Assembly: GCA_903913345.1 (NCBI GenBank)
Contig: CAIWLA010000060.1
Location: 1 to 12,268, forward strand
Source: an uncultured Magnetococcales bacterium
Lineage (GTDB): Bacteria > Pseudomonadota > Magnetococcia > Magnetococcales > Magnetaquicoccaceae
Length of the DNA stretch: 12,268 nt
Direction: 5' to 3'
The translations under genes and the position numbers were made by a program. Below, in pieces: positions 1,763 through 10,321 of this stretch (position 1 is the stretch's first letter; each line of letters starts with the position of its first letter). The notes under the pieces were generated by a model. That model did no database searches, was not told where the DNA came from, and worked only from the letters and a program-made list of their open reading frames with translations.

Positions 1763-4474
1763 TTACTTGGTTCGCAGCCGTCTGCGCAAGGCTTCCAGAC
1801 GTTCGCCCAACATTTCAATAAAAACCGTCTGTTCCTGACCAACGGTATTGATGACCTCCTCCAATACCCGCCCCAATTCGGATACCTTTTTGACCATTTG
1901 CTGCGTGCTTTCCTCATTCTTGCTGAGCAACCCATCGCGCATTCCATCGAGATCCTGGCTCAAGCTCTGGTTCAAGTCGTCAATGACCTGGGCCAGATGG
2001 GTGTGGTGGGTGCTGACGTGAGAGATGACTTCGGATATTTTCTGATCTATCTTTTGATCTTTTTCCTTTTCCGTGCGCGAGACATCCGCGCGCCACCCTT
2101 CCATGGTGGAGACGATGGTGTTGCGTTCCGATGCCAACCGTTCCCGCAGTTCGAACAGACCGACGGAGAGGGTGCCAAAGGTCTGTTCCAGACGGGCGAA
2201 CAAAACCTCTGCCACCTTTTCGGCCATCTCCTGTCCGGATTCTGCCTTGGGCTGTTCCTGAAGAGTGGTCTGCAACGTCTGGGAAAAGTGGCTGGCCAGT
2301 TGTTGCACAATCAAACCGATGTTGTGCGCATGTTGTGCGTTCTGTTCTTTGAATTGAAGGATTTCCTGTTCCAGGGTGTCAAACCGGTCTGCCATCTGGC
2401 CGGTGGCCTCCCGGAGTGGATGGACAATTCCCTCTTCCATGCCCGTGCGCCATGCCCGGATCTCCGTGAGCAGGAGCGACATGTCGCCTTTGTCCGGCAC
2501 CTGTCCGATCACCGCGTTCAGGGTGTGATGCACACCGCGCCAGGCTTCGGTCTGGTGGCCCTGTTCCGATTGTATCCATTGCATGAACTCCTCTCTGGAA
2601 GGGAGGGTTTGCAGGCGGGCCTCCAGGGTGTTGGTCCACTGCTGGAGGGTGGACTCCTGTGCCTGCAACGTCTCCTGGAGGCGTTGATGGAGCCTCTCTT
2701 CGGAAGGCTTTTGGGCGATCATCTCTTGCAGGGAGTGGTTCCAGGCCTGGAGGGCCGAGGTCTGACCCTCCAGGGCGTTGCCCAGTCGGGTGGCGATCTC
2801 TTCCGTGCCCCCTCGATCCTGGCCGACCTGTTGCCGTTGTCGGTTGGTCTGCTCCCAGTGGGCCTCCATTTTCTCCAGCCAGGCCAACAGGCTGCCTTGA
2901 TCCTTGCCGGCCTGTTGCCGTTGTCGGCTGGCCTGCTCCATGTGGGCCTCCACCTTTTCCAGCCAGGCCAACACACTGCCCTGATCCTTGCCGGTCTGTT
3001 GCCACTGGCGGTTGGTCTGTTCGAGATGGGCATCCAGTCTGGTCAGGAAGGGCAATGTGTTGCCCTGATCCTGGTTGATCTGTTGCAGTTGGCGGTTGGT
3101 CTGTTCAACATGGGCGTCCACTCTCTCCAGCCAGGAGAGACGTTCTCCCTGCTCCCTGTTGATCTGTTGCAGTTGGCGGTTGGTCTGCTCGAAATGGGCA
3201 TCCATCCTTTCGAGAAGGAGCAATTGGCGGCGCAAAAGATCCTGCATGGCCGTATGGTTTTGGGCCATTTCCGTTCTGGAACTGACAACGGCATGGGCAA
3301 ACTCCCCCAACGCCACATCCAGGCGTTCGCCCACGGAAAGCAACTGAATTTCAAAGGCGCGTCCTTCTTCACGACGACGACCCTGTGTCTCGGAGGTCCG
3401 GTTCAGAACCTGGGAGAATTCCAGCAAAAAATGGTTCAAAACCATCCTGAACGCCTCTGCGTTGTCCGGCACCTTGCCGAGCAACTGGGCGTTGGATTCC
3501 AGAGGCGGTATGGAGGGAGAGCGGGTTTGAGAGTCCAGATGGGTCTGTGCCGTCAGGCTGGCCGTCAAACGGCCGAGTTCCCGTTGGAGTTGCTGAAATC
3601 CGAATTGACCATCGTGGACCAGGTGAGCCAGATATTCCGGCTCAATACCGGCCCGGAAGAGGTCATCCATGTAATGTTGCAAGGTGGCGATCTGGGCATA
3701 ACGCCAATGCAGGAGAAACTTTTCAATGATGGTGACCAGGATGGCGGAAAAAATGGCGAAAAAAGAGGCGATAAAGGCCGTGGTGATACCGGAGAAAAGA
3801 TTTTTCAATTGATAGGTGATCTGTTGGGCCTCGACTGATGGGTTGAATTCACTGAGTCCCAGCAAAATGCCCGCAAAGGTGCTGACGATCCCTGCACCGG
3901 TCAGGATACCCGGCAGGTGACGAAAAAATTCCACGCGCATGGGCACATCGACCAGGGCCTGGGTGCTGAAGATGGTTTCCGCCGCAATGGTGGAACGGTA
4001 TTGTATCCGTGGGGCCTCGCCGGGAAGGGTCTCCAGGGTCTGCCGATGCAGGGTTTCGGCATACTCGCGCCAGAGGCGTGTCATTCTGGGATAATAGAGC
4101 CAATGCCAGGCAATCGGGATCTCTTCCGGGTTGGATTCGGATGGGCGCATCAGACGGCCGTTGCGGCGTGCCCTCTCGATGCTGTTTCTGACCAGGGCCA
4201 ACCGTACAAAATCTTGCAGTGCCTGCCAGACATAGCCGATCAGAAAAAACAGCAAAAACCCGGCGAGTACACCCGCCAGGGTAAAGACAATCATGTTGTT
4301 CGTCTGGTGTTGGAGCGGAATACGCAGAAAATCGGGCAGCAGGTCAAAACCGGGAATCTCTCCCAGACTCTTTTCCTGGGAGACCTGATAACCGACGAAG
4401 GTGGCCAGGCCGATGAGCGTCCACGTCCACAACGTGGAGATCAAGGCCAAAAAGAGGGTGAGAGCATTGCCCAT
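1763..4474 (-). CDS. ZorA-like MotA/TolQ/ExbB-family proton channel protein with long coiled-coil tail
   Basis: Protein of 903 residues. Four hydrophobic segments are visible, at about 5-29, 61-85, 185-208 and 226-251. The last two carry the MotA/TolQ/ExbB signature, including HLPGILTGAGIVSTFAGILL (186-205) and GITTAFIASFFAIFSAILVT (229-248), which closely recalls ZorA. In that family the channel forms a pentamer around a ZorB/MotB-like dimer and uses ion flow to drive a motor. Everything after residue 260 is soluble, Gln/Glu-rich and mostly predicted coiled coil, as in the ZorA tail. It includes five 28-residue repeats at 421-560. Total length suits ZorA, which is commonly 700 or more residues. 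An AAAAGG sequence lies six bases before the start. A CYTH-CHAD gene follows and no ZorB is visible in the window. A channel protein of another MotA/TolQ system is the alternative. Confidence 0.75.
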   Translation of the reverse strand: MGNALTLFLALISTLWTWTLIGLATFVGYQVSQEKSLGEIPGFDLLPDFLRIPLQHQTNNMIVFTLAGVLAGFLLFFLIGYVWQALQDFVRLALVRNSIERARRNGRLMRPSESNPEEIPIAWHWLYYPRMTRLWREYAETLHRQTLETLPGEAPRIQYRSTIAAETIFSTQALVDVPMRVEFFRHLPGILTGAGIVSTFAGILLGLSEFNPSVEAQQITYQLKNLFSGITTAFIASFFAIFSAILVTIIEKFLLHWRYAQIATLQHYMDDLFRAGIEPEYLAHLVHDGQFGFQQLQRELGRLTASLTAQTHLDSQTRSPSIPPLESNAQLLGKVPDNAEAFRMVLNHFLLEFSQVLNRTSETQGRRREEGRAFEIQLLSVGERLDVALGEFAHAVVSSRTEMAQNHTAMQDLLRRQLLLLERMDAHFEQTNRQLQQINREQGERLSWLERVDAHVEQTNRQLQQINQDQGNTLPFLTRLDAHLEQTNRQWQQTGKDQGSVLAWLEKVEAHMEQASRQRQQAGKDQGSLLAWLEKMEAHWEQTNRQRQQVGQDRGGTEEIATRLGNALEGQTSALQAWNHSLQEMIAQKPSEERLHQRLQETLQAQESTLQQWTNTLEARLQTLPSREEFMQWIQSEQGHQTEAWRGVHHTLNAVIGQVPDKGDMSLLLTEIRAWRTGMEEGIVHPLREATGQMADRFDTLEQEILQFKEQNAQHAHNIGLIVQQLASHFSQTLQTTLQEQPKAESGQEMAEKVAEVLFARLEQTFGTLSVGLFELRERLASERNTIVSTMEGWRADVSRTEKEKDQKIDQKISEVISHVSTHHTHLAQVIDDLNQSLSQDLDGMRDGLLSKNEESTQQMVKKVSELGRVLEEVINTVGQEQTVFIEMLGERLEALRRRLRTK
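2795..3214 (-). repeat. Five 84-bp tandem repeats encoding 28-residue coiled-coil units
   Basis: Residues 421-448, 449-476, 477-504, 505-532 and 533-560 of the ZorA-like protein are copies of one 28-residue unit, four heptads long. The shared core is L(E/T)(R/K)x(D/E)AHxEQ(T/A)(N/S)RQxQQ. Neighbouring copies are also very alike in DNA, which suggests expansion by duplication and possible length variation between strains. The fifth copy has drifted at its end. Confidence 0.9.
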
Positions 4475-5353: not shown

Positions 5354-5859
5354 AAAATATTTGTTTGCAATGAGTCAATAAAAGAAATATTCCATCCGGG
5401 TGGCGGTGGTGCCGGACATCCGTTGCCTGTTTTCTCCATGCCGGTCATTTCCAGCCGATGTTCCGGGACAAACCGCTCCAGGGTGAGGCGCGTGGTGCGG
5501 GTCTACCACCTCCGGTTCCGTTGCCAGGGGACCAGCCACCCGGTTGGGCCAGGCTTCCCTGGCCGCCTGGGTCGCACCTCCCCGACTGAACGCCGCTGCA
5601 TCCCTCTCGTTATGATTTTCCTCGATTCAAAATTCCTCAATTTATCTCTCTGATCTGCTTCTGACAACCGCTTGGCCGATCGAGAACACCTGGATTTGCA
5701 TGGTGGAATGGTCATGAATGTGGGCTGACTTTTTTTCGTGCATTTTTGGCCAAGGCGTCTTAGAATGCGCAGAGAACGGTGCCTCGAATGAAAACTTGCC
5801 TTTCAAACAAACAAGTTAACGATAGTCAATGATCCAGAACGGCGTGCGGGGGAGTGATC
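5354..5859. other. Intergenic stretch without a convincing gene
   Basis: No reading frame here has protein-like composition and a ribosome binding site. It contains a strong 7-bp hairpin, GGCCAGG (5547-5553) with CCTGGCC (5558-5564) and a CTTC loop, without a T-run. It also has TCCGG/CCGGA arms near 5395-5420 and T-rich tracts near 5729-5748. The pilin operon promoter should lie in the last 150 bases, but I see no convincing -35/-10 pair and no sigma-54 GG-N10-GC element. Confidence 0.5.
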
Positions 5860-6531
5860 GTGAAAGGGGACAGAGCGGGTTTCACCTTGATTGAACTCAT
5901 GGTCGTCGTGGCCATCATCGGCGTACTGGCCGCCATTGGCATCCCCAGAATGACCAGTATGATCCTGACGGGACATTTGGCCGAGGCCAAACCCTATCTG
6001 ATGGCCATTGCGGCGAAGGAGCGGGTTTATAAAACGCAACATGGCGGTTATTACACGCCGAAACCGGGGGATTCGGACGCCGGTTCGGCGACCTGTCCAA
6101 CTCTTGTGTCCGAGTCATGTCTGGAAAGTAATTTGGGCGTCAATCTCAAGGATGCAGGTGATTTTTGTTTTGTGGTACGTAACGCCGACAACACATTAAT
6201 CAGCACATCAGGCAATGTTGTTGCCCCTGCGGTTAATGGGGATCGCTTTGAGGTGTGGGCCATTTTGAACAATCAGGCGGTGGCCGTCAATCCCACGCTC
6301 AACGTCAACCCGGCACCGGCCTCCGGTGCCGTGACCTGCACACTGACGCCCAACAAGCAGGGACCAAACGGTTGGGTGGGGGCGGCTGGTACGGTGGGTG
6401 GACAGGGGCGGGTTGTGGTGTTGCGGTATCCGCCGACCGCCAGTGGTTTGGACACGGCGGCTCGCAGTGGACGCGCTGGCGTTTTTCTGGATTGGATAGA
6501 CGGCATCAGCATAAGCGATCCCCTTCTGTGA
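5860..6531 (+). CDS. Type IV pilin-like prepilin (first gene of pilin operon)
   Basis: Prepilin of 223 residues with leader MKGDRAG, cut by prepilin peptidase before Phe8. The mature N-terminus FTLIELMVVVAIIGVLAAIG has the invariant Glu at +5 and a full hydrophobic helix. The C-terminal region is a globular domain with four cysteines (in SATCP, ESCLE, DFCFV and VTCTL), likely paired outside the membrane. I chose the GTG at 5860 because GGGGGAG (5847-5853) sits six bases upstream and the result is a classical MK leader. A GTG six bases earlier would abut the ribosome binding site. The protein is larger than many major pilins, so it may be a minor pilin or an MSHA-type pilin. The next gene starts inside its stop codon (TGATG). 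Confidence 0.88.
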   Translation: MKGDRAGFTLIELMVVVAIIGVLAAIGIPRMTSMILTGHLAEAKPYLMAIAAKERVYKTQHGGYYTPKPGDSDAGSATCPTLVSESCLESNLGVNLKDAGDFCFVVRNADNTLISTSGNVVAPAVNGDRFEVWAILNNQAVAVNPTLNVNPAPASGAVTCTLTPNKQGPNGWVGAAGTVGGQGRVVVLRYPPTASGLDTAARSGRAGVFLDWIDGISISDPLL

Positions 6532-7121
6532 TGGCCATGGTTGCATGCAGCAGGCATAAAAGGAAATCGAATCGGGGGTTTACCCTGGTCGAGATCATGG
6601 TCAGCATGGTGCTGACCGGTATCCTGGTCGCTGGCATGGTCGGGGTGTGGGGGATGGTCGCCGAGCAGTTTTTTCGGCTGTCGTTGCGGCAGAAGGCCGT
6701 CTTTGTCCTGCATGGGCATATGGAGCGGTTGGCGCAGTTGTATCGTTTGGATAGTGCTGCGGCTGACGCGATGGTTACGACGATTTCGGATGGGTCGAAA
6801 TTTTTAAAGATCACTGCTCCAGCAGTGAAATCATTGGCCGATTTTACATCGGGGGCGGTGGGGAGCGATGGATTCATTTTCCTGGCTCTGACAGGAGATC
6901 GGAATGTGGTTTGGTTGGACCGAGAGAAGGGTGTGACTGCGCAATTGCATTGGATAGAGGAGAATCTCTACCCGAACTGTGCCGGTACAACGGGTAATTG
7001 TCAACTCTTAACGTTATATCTGGATTATCCGTATCGCTTTAATAAAACCACAGGCAATAACCCCTCGATAGATCCGGTGGAGACGATTTCTGTCAAAACC
7101 ATTGTGGGACAACGTCAATGA
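6531..7121 (+). CDS. Type IV pilus/MSHA-type pseudopilin
   Basis: Prepilin of 196 residues with a basic leader MAMVACSRHKRKSNRG, cleaved before Phe17. The mature N-terminus GFTLVEIMVSMVLTGILVAG has Glu at +5. The mature part is long and polar with a single Cys pair (NCAGTTGNC). Such minor pseudopilins (PilV, PilW or MshD type) prime or cap pilus assembly; I cannot choose between them. The ATG at 6531 shares a base with the previous stop and no strong ribosome binding site precedes it, which indicates translational coupling. An ATG at 6537 is an alternative. Its stop overlaps, as ATGA, the orphan start at 7118 of the gene that originally followed. Confidence 0.85.
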   Translation: MAMVACSRHKRKSNRGFTLVEIMVSMVLTGILVAGMVGVWGMVAEQFFRLSLRQKAVFVLHGHMERLAQLYRLDSAAADAMVTTISDGSKFLKITAPAVKSLADFTSGAVGSDGFIFLALTGDRNVVWLDREKGVTAQLHWIEENLYPNCAGTTGNCQLLTLYLDYPYRFNKTTGNNPSIDPVETISVKTIVGQRQ

Positions 7122-7162
7122 AACGCGCCAAATTGAATCGATTGACGGTTGCGAGGAATTAA
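7118..7162 (+). pseudogene. Orphaned leader codons of the interrupted PilW-like prepilin gene
   Basis: An ATG at 7118 overlaps the preceding pseudopilin stop as ATGA, the same coupling seen at 9845. It opens a frame of 14 codons, MKRAKLNRLTVARN, then TAA. Its basic, short composition is what a prepilin leader looks like just before the GFTLxE site, but no such site follows here. A pilin lacking an obvious start of its own, beginning SSGFTLVEV, appears 2.1 kb downstream. I infer that this is the original 5' end of that gene, cut off by an insertion. Confidence 0.6.
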
Positions 7163-7169
7163 AAGGTCC

Positions 7170-8159
7170 ATGCCGGAAAGTGATGATCAACGCCAGAATG
7201 ATGAATTCGACACCCCCTGGAAGGAGATCCTGGAGGCCTATTTCAAGGATTTTCTGGCCTTCTTTCTGCCAGTGGCGCACGATGGCGTCGATTGGGAACG
7301 TGGACATGAATTTCTCGACAAGGAGTTGGCCCGCATCACCCGCGAGGCGGAAACGGGTGATCGGCGCATGGATAAGTTGGTCAAAGTATGGCAGCGCGAT
7401 GGCGTCGAACGTTGGGTGTTGATTCACGTTGAGATTGAGGGCAATCGTGAATCAAACTATTCAGAGAGAATGTACGTCTATCATTATCGCGCATTCGATC
7501 TCAAACGGATGCCCGTGGCCAGTTTGGCCATTTTGACCGATGAGGAGGCCGGTTGGCGACCATCGGAGTACGGCCAGGATTTGTGGGGAACACGACTGCA
7601 CTATCAGTTTACCGCAGTCAAGTTACTGGACTATCCAGAAGCCGAGTTGGAACATTCCAGCAACCCGTTTGCTGTGGTCACGCTGGCGCATTTGCAGGCC
7701 AAGAAGACAAGGAACCGGACGGAAGATCGCTACCGGGTTAAATGGCATCTGATTCGCAGTTTGTATCAAAGTGGTTTTAATCGCCAGCAAGTGATCGATC
7801 TCTTTCGCTTCATCGACTGGGTGCTCCATCTGCCAAGAGAGGTTGATGATCGGTTGTGGGAGAAAATAGCTGACTTGGAGGAGAGCCAAAAAATGCCTTA
7901 TATTACGAGTGTAGAACGGATTGGAATCAGGAAAGGCCGTCAAGAAGGTCTCCTTGAAGGTCGTCAGGAAGGCCGTCAGGAAGGCCGTCAGGAAGGCGAG
8001 TCCACGATGTTGACGCGCCAGTTGCAACGACGATTTGGCACCGTACCGGATTGGGTCAGTGAAAAAATCGCCAAGGCCGATCTGCCCTCCCTGGAGGAAT
8101 GGGGTCTGCGGATACTGGATGCCCCAACACTGGACAGAGTGTTTTTGGACAAGATGTGA
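7170..8159 (+). CDS. Rpn-family PD-(D/E)XK nuclease / putative transposase with DUF4351-like C-terminus
   Basis: Protein of 329 residues. The nuclease core shows RRMDKLVKVW (65-74) followed by WVLIHVEIEG (82-91), the Rpn pattern D...(E)xQ/E. Asp68 and Glu88 are likely metal ligands; the usual glutamine of ExQ is Glu90 here. Further conserved-looking blocks are SERMYVYHYRAFD (98-110) and the RYRVKWHLIRSLYQSGF region (187-203). A GRQEG-repeat linker at 256-275 leads to a DUF4351-like tail, TRQLQRRFGTVPDWV (282-296). Rpn proteins are DNA endonucleases that promote recombination, and some restrict phage. The ATG at 7170 is chosen over an upstream TTG because AAAAGG and GAGGAA precede it. It is the first gene of the segment inserted into the pilin operon and looks intact. 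Confidence 0.85.
   Translation: MPESDDQRQNDEFDTPWKEILEAYFKDFLAFFLPVAHDGVDWERGHEFLDKELARITREAETGDRRMDKLVKVWQRDGVERWVLIHVEIEGNRESNYSERMYVYHYRAFDLKRMPVASLAILTDEEAGWRPSEYGQDLWGTRLHYQFTAVKLLDYPEAELEHSSNPFAVVTLAHLQAKKTRNRTEDRYRVKWHLIRSLYQSGFNRQQVIDLFRFIDWVLHLPREVDDRLWEKIADLEESQKMPYITSVERIGIRKGRQEGLLEGRQEGRQEGRQEGESTMLTRQLQRRFGTVPDWVSEKIAKADLPSLEEWGLRILDAPTLDRVFLDKM
7935..7994 (+). repeat. Five 12-bp tandem units encoding the GRQEG linker
   Basis: Five in-frame 12-base units (consensus GGCCGTCAGGAA) encode GRQE/GLLE repeats in the Rpn protein; the last two units are identical. Such GRxEG tracts are a common linker between the nuclease core and the DUF4351-like tail, and they can change length by slippage. 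Confidence 0.85.
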
Positions 8160-8240
8160 GACGTATTTTTCTGTGCAACGCTGGCAGTATGAGTGGTACA
8201 CGTCTGACAGGGCAGTTGTTCATCGCTTAAAGGGGGCGTC

Positions 8241-9848
8241 ATGGCATCAGATACTTTGCCCCTCGCCGGGGAGATGCTGCTTTACCAGACTGAGGATGGT
8301 CGTACCCGCTTGCAGGTGGTGTTGGACAATCAGACCCTATGGCTCAATCAAAAACAGCTTATGGAGTTGTTTGGCAAGGCCAAGACGACCATCAGCGAGC
8401 ATATTGCCCATATTTTCGAGGATGGAGAACTGATGGAGGAGGCAGTTGTTCGGTTTTTCCGAACAACTGCTGCCGATGGCAAGCAGTACGAGGTGGCCTA
8501 CTACCATTTGGATATGGTTCTGGCTTTAGGCTATCGGGTACGGAGTCCGGCGGGAATGCGCTTTCGCCAGTGGGCCAGCGACAAGCTGAAAGAGTATATC
8601 ATCAAGGGATTCGTGTTGGACGACGAACGACTGAAAAATCCCGGCAAAGGGCCGGACTACTTTGACGAACTGACCCGCCGACTGCAAGACATTCGTACCA
8701 GCGAGCGGCGGTTTTACCAGAAGATTACCGATATTTACGCAACGAGCGTGGATTATGACCCGTCCCATTCAATGACCAAGGAGTTTTTTGCCACGGTACA
8801 GAACAAGGTTCACTACGCCATCCATGGTTATACGTCTACCGAGTTGATTTCTCAACGCGCCAACAGTGCCCTTCCCAACATGGGCTTGACCAACTGGGAA
8901 GGTACGCGGATACACAAGGATGATGTGAGCATTGCCAAGAACTACCTGCACGAGGACGAACTGCGCGCCATGAATAATCTGGCGGAACAGTATTTGATCT
9001 TCGCCGAATCTCAGGCTGAGCGGCGCGTTCCTATGACCATGAGGGACTGGATCAAAAAATTGGAGGGGTTCCTGACTTTGAACGATCGGGAAATTTTGCA
9101 AAACGCTGGCAATGTGTCGGCGCGAATGGCGAAAGAGCAGGCCGAGAGGGAGTATGAAGTGTTTCGAGTGATCGCCGATCGACAACTGGAGTCGGATTTT
9201 GACCGCATGGTCAAACAATTGCCCAAGCCGAAAGGGGGGCGGTCGTCCGGTTTTACCCTGGTCGAGGTGATGATTGCGGGCAGTTTGGGCACGGTTTTGG
9301 CCCTGGTGCTGTTTCAGATATTGATGCAGGCGCAACACATGGCGGACGTGATGATCATGCAATCCACCCTGAACAGCCAGGCACGGGAGGTGTTTGAGTT
9401 GTTGATGGATGGGCGTGGTAATACACAGCTAACCGGTTATCACGGACGCAATGCGGATCCCTTTGTGGGTGAAATCAACCTAAGCCGCCAAAATGATGCA
9501 AGAAACGCTCTTACATTTCGGTTAGGTTTAGGGCCTGCCGGCGGAACAGCCATTCGGACACGAGAGACGATTCCTTTTAATGTGACATGTTCGGGCGTAG
9601 GTACGCCTGTCAAAACATGTGCCGCGAATAACCAGATCCTTAATGTGGATGGTTATATCGACGAATTTGGTTCAAAAGACGCTTTCTATTCTAATCCGCC
9701 GGACCCTTCTTACAGAACATCTGAGGTGACATTCACCATCATCGATCCTCAGCAAATACCGCATAGCACTGGCGACTCGCGTTTCATACAATCGGAATAC
9801 AGTTCTTCCTATTGGACTGTGTTTTCCTTGAACAAGGATGTACCATGA
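8241..9848 (+). CDS. RhuM-family protein fused in frame to a PilW-like pseudopilin
   Basis: Frame of 535 residues with two unrelated parts. Residues 1 to about 330 are a near complete RhuM-family protein: WLNQKQLMELFGKAKTTISE (34-53), VVRFFRTTAADGK (69-81), a YYHLDMVLALGYRVRS block (87-102) and FVLDDERLKN (124-133). RhuM has no settled biochemical role; it occurs in pathogenicity islands and near defence genes. From Gly337 the chain reads GFTLVEVMIAGSLG with Glu at +5, then about 195 residues of pseudopilin. No stop separates the parts. AGGGGG lies four bases before the ATG. Prepilin peptidase could cut after Gly337 and release RhuM on the cytoplasmic side, or the pilin may be translated separately from Met323. 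The fusion could also arise from a sequencing error that removed the RhuM stop. Confidence 0.8.
   Translation: MASDTLPLAGEMLLYQTEDGRTRLQVVLDNQTLWLNQKQLMELFGKAKTTISEHIAHIFEDGELMEEAVVRFFRTTAADGKQYEVAYYHLDMVLALGYRVRSPAGMRFRQWASDKLKEYIIKGFVLDDERLKNPGKGPDYFDELTRRLQDIRTSERRFYQKITDIYATSVDYDPSHSMTKEFFATVQNKVHYAIHGYTSTELISQRANSALPNMGLTNWEGTRIHKDDVSIAKNYLHEDELRAMNNLAEQYLIFAESQAERRVPMTMRDWIKKLEGFLTLNDREILQNAGNVSARMAKEQAEREYEVFRVIADRQLESDFDRMVKQLPKPKGGRSSGFTLVEVMIAGSLGTVLALVLFQILMQAQHMADVMIMQSTLNSQAREVFELLMDGRGNTQLTGYHGRNADPFVGEINLSRQNDARNALTFRLGLGPAGGTAIRTRETIPFNVTCSGVGTPVKTCAANNQILNVDGYIDEFGSKDAFYSNPPDPSYRTSEVTFTIIDPQQIPHSTGDSRFIQSEYSSSYWTVFSLNKDVP
8442..8470 (+). repeat. Perfect 12-bp hairpin inside the rhuM coding sequence
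   Basis: GCAGTTGTTCGG (8442-8453) and CCGAACAACTGC (8459-8470) flank a five-T loop. The left arm, as GGCAGTTGTTC, also occurs at 8211-8221 in the gap before the rhuM start, so the gap could compete for pairing with the right arm. The hairpin encodes the conserved VVRFFRTTAAD block. Confidence 0.8.
9207..9848 (+). CDS. PilW/MshO-like pseudopilin, possible internal start within the RhuM fusion
   Basis: An ATG at 9207 (Met323 of the fusion) would give a 213-residue prepilin with leader MVKQLPKPKGGRSSG followed by FTLVEVMIAGSLGTVLALVL. This is a normal leader length with basic residues and the Gly-Phe cleavage site and Glu at +5. Upstream GGAG lies about 15 bases away, too far to be convincing, so initiation here would be weak or coupled. 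Position between a pseudopilin and a PilX-like protein, the long polar body, and one likely disulphide (TCSGVGTPVKTC, 451-462 of the fusion) fit PilW or MshO. The body has no frameshift or stop, which suggests it is still under selection or was interrupted recently. Confidence 0.55.
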   Translation: MVKQLPKPKGGRSSGFTLVEVMIAGSLGTVLALVLFQILMQAQHMADVMIMQSTLNSQAREVFELLMDGRGNTQLTGYHGRNADPFVGEINLSRQNDARNALTFRLGLGPAGGTAIRTRETIPFNVTCSGVGTPVKTCAANNQILNVDGYIDEFGSKDAFYSNPPDPSYRTSEVTFTIIDPQQIPHSTGDSRFIQSEYSSSYWTVFSLNKDVP

Positions 9849-10321
9849 AAAGACAGAAGACCTCCTTTCCCTCTGTCATCATCGACCAGCGAGGCAACGC
9901 TGTGGTCACGGTCATGATTACGATGTTCATGATCACATTGTTGGTTTCTGCCCTGGTTGAACATTTTCTCGTGGCGGAAGCCAATGCCGTGGAGGAGAGT
10001 TTGGCCAAGCTGCGGGTCTATTGGGCCATGTCGGGACATGTGGATTATATCTACAGCAGAGTCATGAAAGACAGTACTCTAGGAAACATCCAATCTTACA
10101 TGAATGATCTGAGGGATCCGGCACCGGCAATTGATACCAGGACCTGGAACAATTATGGTGATAGTTATACGTTTGCGATTCAACAGAGTCTTGAAGGGAG
10201 TGGCGTACTGCTTGCGCTTGTTAATCCCGGATCAATTTTGCCGTTGCACGTGCAAGCGAATCTTGACACCACTACCCCAGCGTCTCCTGTATTAAAGATA
10301 ACACAATATGAACGCTACTAA
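9845..10321 (+). CDS. PilX/MshP/GspK-like minor pilin assembly protein
   Basis: Protein of 158 residues. After a short basic N-terminus, DQRGNAVVTVMITMFMITLL forms one membrane helix (about residues 15-36), followed by a polar domain beginning VEHFLVAEANAVEESLAKLR. The QRG-x-hydrophobic start is typical of PilX, MshP and GspK, which lack the Phe+1 prepilin consensus. These proteins join the pilus-priming complex with the other minor pilins. ATGA overlap with the preceding frame and AAGGA six bases before the ATG support this start and coupling. The remaining sequence is not diagnostic, so the family choice rests on the N-terminus and the order after a PilW-like gene. Confidence 0.65.
   Translation: MKRQKTSFPSVIIDQRGNAVVTVMITMFMITLLVSALVEHFLVAEANAVEESLAKLRVYWAMSGHVDYIYSRVMKDSTLGNIQSYMNDLRDPAPAIDTRTWNNYGDSYTFAIQQSLEGSGVLLALVNPGSILPLHVQANLDTTTPASPVLKITQYERY

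Follow-up and report, generated by a model that had tools for sequence, protein, structure and literature searches.

How can a pilin gene persist once an insertion has separated its body from its own start codon and leader? The question is raised by a 12,268 nt stretch of DNA (the window), contig 60 of the draft genome of an uncultured Magnetococcales bacterium (G000; 3.63 Mb in 729 contigs, 5.17% contamination). Its plus strand carries a pilin operon of five genes, in the order pilin 1, pilin 2, pilin 3, a gene that matches GspK weakly and a longer gene. Between pilin 2 and the body of pilin 3 lie an rpn-like gene and then a rhuM gene (Table 1); pilins and two defence-type genes are now placed in one transcription unit. 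An earlier note on this DNA had described a 14-codon leader ORF with an ATGA overlap, an rpn-like gene, rhuM and a displaced pilin body, all of which are present as it stated. The probable answer to the question, held here with good confidence, is that the 3′ end of the inserted rhuM was exapted as the start and class III leader of pilin 3.

The interrupted operon and its two inserted genes

Table 1. Features of the pilin operon and of the segment inserted into it (window coordinates).
Feature	Position	Strand	Evidence or remark
Pilin 1	5854-6531	+	
Pilin 2	6531-7121	+	Prepilin N-terminal motif, PF07963 E 4.6e-9; upstream neighbour of the insert
Leader relic, from the former start and leader of pilin 3	7118-7162	+	14 codons; sequence; G045 start in the same ATGA overlap
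rpn-like gene (DUF4351), 329 aa	7170-8159	+	PF14261 E 6.2e-10
Linker between rpn and rhuM, origin unassigned	8160-8231	+	Sequence search of 48 genomes
rhuM body	8241-9234 (end approximate)	+	PF13310 E 2.8e-106; DNA match 8232-9234 to G029 and G016
Open frame rhuM-pilin 3, 535 aa	8241-9848	+	Unbroken ORF; the protein collection has it on 3 contigs (P0005)
AGGGAG and GTG 9159, most likely new pilin 3 start	9147-9161	+	-8.0 kcal/mol; homologue comparison; GTG also in G003
ATG 9207, alternative pilin 3 start	9207-9209	+	Ancestral RhuM Met codon; kept in G003
Right join, with the Gly just before the prepilin cleavage site (-1)	9235-9251	+	End of rhuM homology; G-F-T-L-V-E motif
Pilin 3 body	9249-9848	+	Orthologues in G003 and G045; PF07963; omega
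Gene with weak GspK match	9845-10321	+	17.7 bits, cut-off 130
Longer gene, last of the operon	from about 10372	+	

Pilin 2 ends in an ATGA overlap with the former start of pilin 3, an arrangement that the left leader remnant would have kept through the insertion. The relic ORF now stops 7 nt before the rpn-like gene, which has a Shine-Dalgarno of -5.9 at 12 nt, and would hand ribosomes from pilin 2 to that gene. The left boundary of the insert lies somewhere in 7122-7170.

The rpn-like protein has the C-terminal DUF4351 part (PF14261, 39.4 bits, cut-off 25), with GRQE four-residue repeats in the translation. Transposase_31 (PF04754) is absent from its Pfam matches up to E 5, in a search where the HMMER filters discard most weak matches, and the gene is therefore called rpn-like. 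The DUF4351 part and four-residue repeats are shared with the Rpn toxin and RpnS antitoxin of Zhong et al. 2023 (PMC10327210, the sections cited here), as are a possible internal start, ATG 7893, and a second product made from an internal start; the window differs in the missing transposase_31 match and in that the internal product at the rhuM end is an unrelated pilin. ATG 7893 is in frame, has the second strongest Shine-Dalgarno (-9.3) of 107 in-frame ATG/GTG codons, and encodes Met 242, which does not vary among 32 aligned sequences; judged by sequence, it is likely the internal start of a short C-terminal product of RpnS type. Residue 90 (codons 89-91, window 7434-7442) is Glu where 30/32 aligned homologues have Gln, and lies close to the conserved Glu 88; it is possibly an altered nuclease site. 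A search with the alignment of the rpn-like protein found no solved structure. Omega of the rpn-like gene is 0.14-0.18, calculated against two copies from its own genome, where 25 DUF4351 loci exceed the cut-off (26 matches in all). Elsewhere, G003, a relative of the same genus, has another DUF4351 gene (L039, 1005-2009) some 0.65 kb ahead of its pilin 1, and the pilin contig of G026 also bears an rpn-like fragment (G026:C167:75-262).

RhuM passes its Pfam model by a wide margin (PF13310, 354.9 bits, cut-off 33.7). Other rhuM genes can be matched to it up to about 9234, and comparison with them establishes that the stop codon has been lost. The 119 closest listed homologues have 8-19 residues from the conserved Met of the DFDRMVKQ region to their ends; no separate RhuM end is found shortly after this motif in the window, and the frame continues for 200 more codons. 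Both inserted genes are constrained, rhuM with an omega of 0.09-0.10, though this value, like that of the rpn-like gene, includes time before the insertion. In two genomes with close RhuM relatives (G029, G004), rhuM follows a DNA methylase gene (PF01555). The gene after rhuM in G029 starts in an overlap with the rhuM stop and is a relative of type III res (PF04851 over the cut-off; PRK15483 193.9 bits, cut-off 564, in a partial gene), while the corresponding gene in G004 was assessed by its similar first bases alone. RhuM has been proposed as a toxin domain of such restriction-modification loci in a HEPN survey (PMC3710099, the part cited here), and the RhuM family is candidate PDC-S05 in PADLOC. 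The RhuM relatives with methylase and res neighbours resemble these loci; unlike them, the window rhuM is without methylase and res genes, sits after an rpn-like gene and has lost its stop. One other rhuM apart from the usual neighbours was seen (L050, G036:C135), and the sequence after its stop resembles the beginning of res over some 15 nt before the likeness ends.

The linker between the two genes has a full match nowhere but itself in the 48 genomes. Over 31 nt (8195-8225) it shares 87% identity with a pqiB-type gene of G020 (E 4.7e-4, valid for one genome of 48) and also resembles a pqiB-type gene in G011 (E 0.026). An origin from the pqiB-like gene of G000 itself was rejected, as that gene gave no match, and the likeness may be chance or a captured scrap. 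On the opposite strand of the window, a 903-aa ZorA-like protein (1763-4474; PADLOC ZorA1, E 6.6e-64) adjoins a CHAD-domain protein (63-1742; PF05235); no other scanned window protein was named ZorB.

Empty, occupied and scar states among relatives

The placement of the insertion within the leader region of a pilin gene, as the earlier note proposed, is borne out by an empty site in one relative and, in another, by the scar that a deletion left of this insert. In G045, which belongs to another family of the order, the five genes keep this arrangement and the site is cleanly empty, with the pilin 3 start in the ATGA overlap. From the pilin 2 stop to the Gly codon of pilin 3 there are 2128 nt in the window and 219 in G003, compared with 24-84 nt in nine relatives with script-placed pilins (G045, G037, G025, G035, G021, G026, G005, G015, G030); for two of these, G015 and G030, position and motif served to locate pilin 3 (the match to pilin 3 reaches no better than E 9.8e-4 in G015 and is absent in G030). 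The comparison had 14 rows, including three outside the count of nine: G029, with a pilin 3 candidate at 114 nt; G041, where pilin 3 alone was placed by script and the pilin 2 stop directly precedes a 12-codon leader; and G044, which gives no spacing. The empty state is the common one and is taken as ancestral. Neither an ancestral RhuM-pilin order nor an empty-site leader unrelated to the 7118 frame, the outcomes that the earlier note had named against its own reading, was found among the relatives compared.

In G003, what comes after pilin 2 is first a short leader in decay, then a match to 7160-7213 (10 nt before the rpn-like gene and its first 44 nt), next a match to 9103-9247 (the rhuM tail, i.e., the last ~130 nt of rhuM, and the leader) and finally pilin 3. 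The two matches score 53 and 102, respectively, against 32 and 34 for the best of 300 shuffles each, and RhuM residues 288-330 were found by protein search in the scar, with two TAA codons. The joins are thus common to G000 and G003, as read from the two sequences, and therefore point to one insertion before the two lineages split, with a later internal deletion in G003. On this evidence the rpn-like and rhuM segment would have been inserted once, in an ancestor of both, where the leader of the operon's third pilin gene is encoded. Trees built for two of the pilins (11 rows for pilin 3, 7 for pilin 2) do not resolve the branches around G000 and lack a sister pairing of G000 with G003; G045 and another protein are slightly nearer to G000 by path length, although the highest pilin identity to G000 is that of G003.

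The common joins also speak against an assembly chimera or a strain mixture. Such an artefact might be looked for in a fragmented and partly contaminated draft in which rpn genes are a repeated family, but the same two joins occur in a separate genome, on an 86.8-kb contig, the nearest rpn copy in G000 is only 78% identical, and the fusion protein is found on 3 contigs. An artefact is therefore very improbable.

A probable start and leader within the rhuM tail

Pilin 3 had been said to have no proper start of its own, which is incorrect. Two in-frame start codons, GTG 9159 and ATG 9207, lie within the rhuM tail, and alignment establishes that both have been kept in the two species. With its stop codon lost, rhuM became joined in frame to the pilin at the right join; ribosomes would then start within the rhuM tail, most likely at GTG 9159 and otherwise at ATG 9207, giving a prepilin leader made of rhuM codons that prepilin peptidase would cut after Gly. 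The leader, including Gly, has 31 residues from GTG 9159 and 15 from ATG 9207, and is followed by FTLVE.

GTG 9159 is preceded by AGAGGGAG, and its Shine-Dalgarno comes 5th in strength among the 107 ATG and GTG codons examined in frame. Stronger values occur at codons that are not starts, the strongest being at ATG 9405 inside the pilin, and the score of GTG 9159 alone therefore proves nothing. In all 119 of the closest listed RhuM homologues, this position holds another residue (102 K, 11 T, 5 R, 1 S), and the Shine-Dalgarno is -8.0 in the window and -5.7 in G003, against -2.4 to -5.3 in six RhuM relatives. The GTG may already have been present in the donor rhuM. A search for the site among viral contigs found none. 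The codon of ATG 9207 is Met in 113/119 of the same homologues, and its Shine-Dalgarno is weak or distant (-5.9 at 14 nt in the window, -1.5 in G003).

The N-terminus of pilin 3 has the features of a class III leader by sequence, with Gly at -1 (codon at 9249), a hydrophobic stretch and Glu at +5. It shares with type IV pilin class III leaders, as described in the cited part of PMC4471445, a hydrophilic leader, Gly -1, Phe +1 and Glu +5, and differs from them in being built of another gene's codons. Quoted lengths are 6-26 residues, and about 15-30 for type IVb (PMC4471445, same part), and the G037 orthologue has a leader of 29 residues when counted from its nearest in-frame start, so a leader of 31 is long and not absurd. 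A prepilin peptidase domain is encoded in G000 (PF06750). The earlier description of the gene as PilW-like does not hold in the strict sense: no named PilW/GspJ family model is passed, and the best NCBIfam match, PRK10557, reaches 16.1 bits (cut-off 120).

The alternative that pilin 3 is a dying gene in G000, the insertion having removed its leader and left a useless RhuM-pilin fusion, draws on the lack of any stop between rhuM and pilin 3 and on a PF07963 score just under the cut-off (20.3 bits, cut-off 21.2). The frame is open, however, and omega of pilin 3 against G003 is 0.27, like that of its four neighbours (0.24-0.31), which indicates from the codons that pilin 3 is under purifying selection; this value pools both lineages and leaves room for recent decay in G000 alone. 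Moreover, G003 has kept the start and leader though the rest of rhuM is gone. Both scar stops in its leader frame come before the GTG, and the leader's 31 codons contain neither stop nor gap. The first 30 mature codons have an omega of 0.07, below those of the leader halves (0.33 and 0.41; with 16 and 15 codons, respectively, these values carry little weight). We consider a dying gene improbable. Under exaptation of the rhuM end, most of rpn and rhuM would have been deleted later in G003 while the donated start and leader were retained, as proposed because the pilin depends on them. Another pilin 3 orthologue (P0004) has its recorded start after the leader, as if none had been recognised within it, and could be a third case.

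Alternatively, RhuM and pilin 3 could be made as one chain and be cut by prepilin peptidase after Gly 337, with no internal start, yielding a RhuM of natural length and a mature pilin. The unbroken frame and the strong constraint on rhuM accord with this, as do the lengths of RhuM homologues among the matches listed (324-343 aa) and the cutting by prepilin peptidase on the cytoplasmic side (PMC4471445, in the part cited). Against it, the pilin persists in G003 without the rhuM body, the new GTG with its Shine-Dalgarno fits internal starting better, and the predicted structure of the fusion is unusable (pLDDT 47.6). A single chain as the only product is unlikely. It is likewise doubtful that rhuM-pilin 3 is one gene with two outputs, an internal-start prepilin and the 535-aa chain cut after Gly; if true, release of the defence protein RhuM would be tied to pilus biogenesis.

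Arrival of the insert and its meaning

The joins carry no direct or inverted repeats beyond chance, the longest shared word being 5 nt. The target duplication and terminal inverted repeats of an insertion sequence or composite transposon are thus not found there, although old target duplications could have decayed. Further copies of the Rpn-RhuM pair, which the earlier note had proposed to look for, were not found: among the matches listed in a DNA search of 48 genomes (best 6 candidates each), no second match spans both genes, no rpn gene occurs at 36 fetched RhuM loci (some being the same place twice), and no rhuM at 28 fetched rpn loci, with flanks up to about 1.5 kb in both sets.

The earlier note had suggested the nuclease gene as the mobilising activity, a reading in which the rpn product itself carried the segment into the operon and which can hold beside exaptation of the rhuM end. 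Rpn proteins of E. coli stimulate recombination that does not require RecA, the panC-panD gap seems to have received rpnC on two occasions (PMC5350276, the part cited here), and a role of Rpn in the insertion is possible. The joins and the missing second pair count against it, irregular joins being compatible with any illegitimate recombination, and the cited sections of Zhong et al. call Rpn proteins highly unlikely transposases and report no evidence of autonomous transposition (PMC10327210). Mobilisation by the rpn product is, on balance, rather unlikely. The closest parallel is enterobacterial rpnC (yadD) of Kingston et al. 2017 (PMC5350276, same part): in both cases an rpn gene lies between two housekeeping-operon genes and no conventional transposon is described. 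They differ in that rpnC is intergenic, whereas the window insert lies inside a leader, is accompanied by rhuM, and has replaced the start and leader of its neighbour.

Inserted rpn genes and internal starts are already known; for a pilin leader derived from an inserted gene, no precedent was recognised in the open PMC literature. The locus suggests that an insertion into the signal peptide need not be fatal to a gene when the last codons of the insert become its start and leader, and that these can outlast the decay of the insert. With empty, occupied and scar states all found in present genomes, such a leader takeover would be traceable stepwise.
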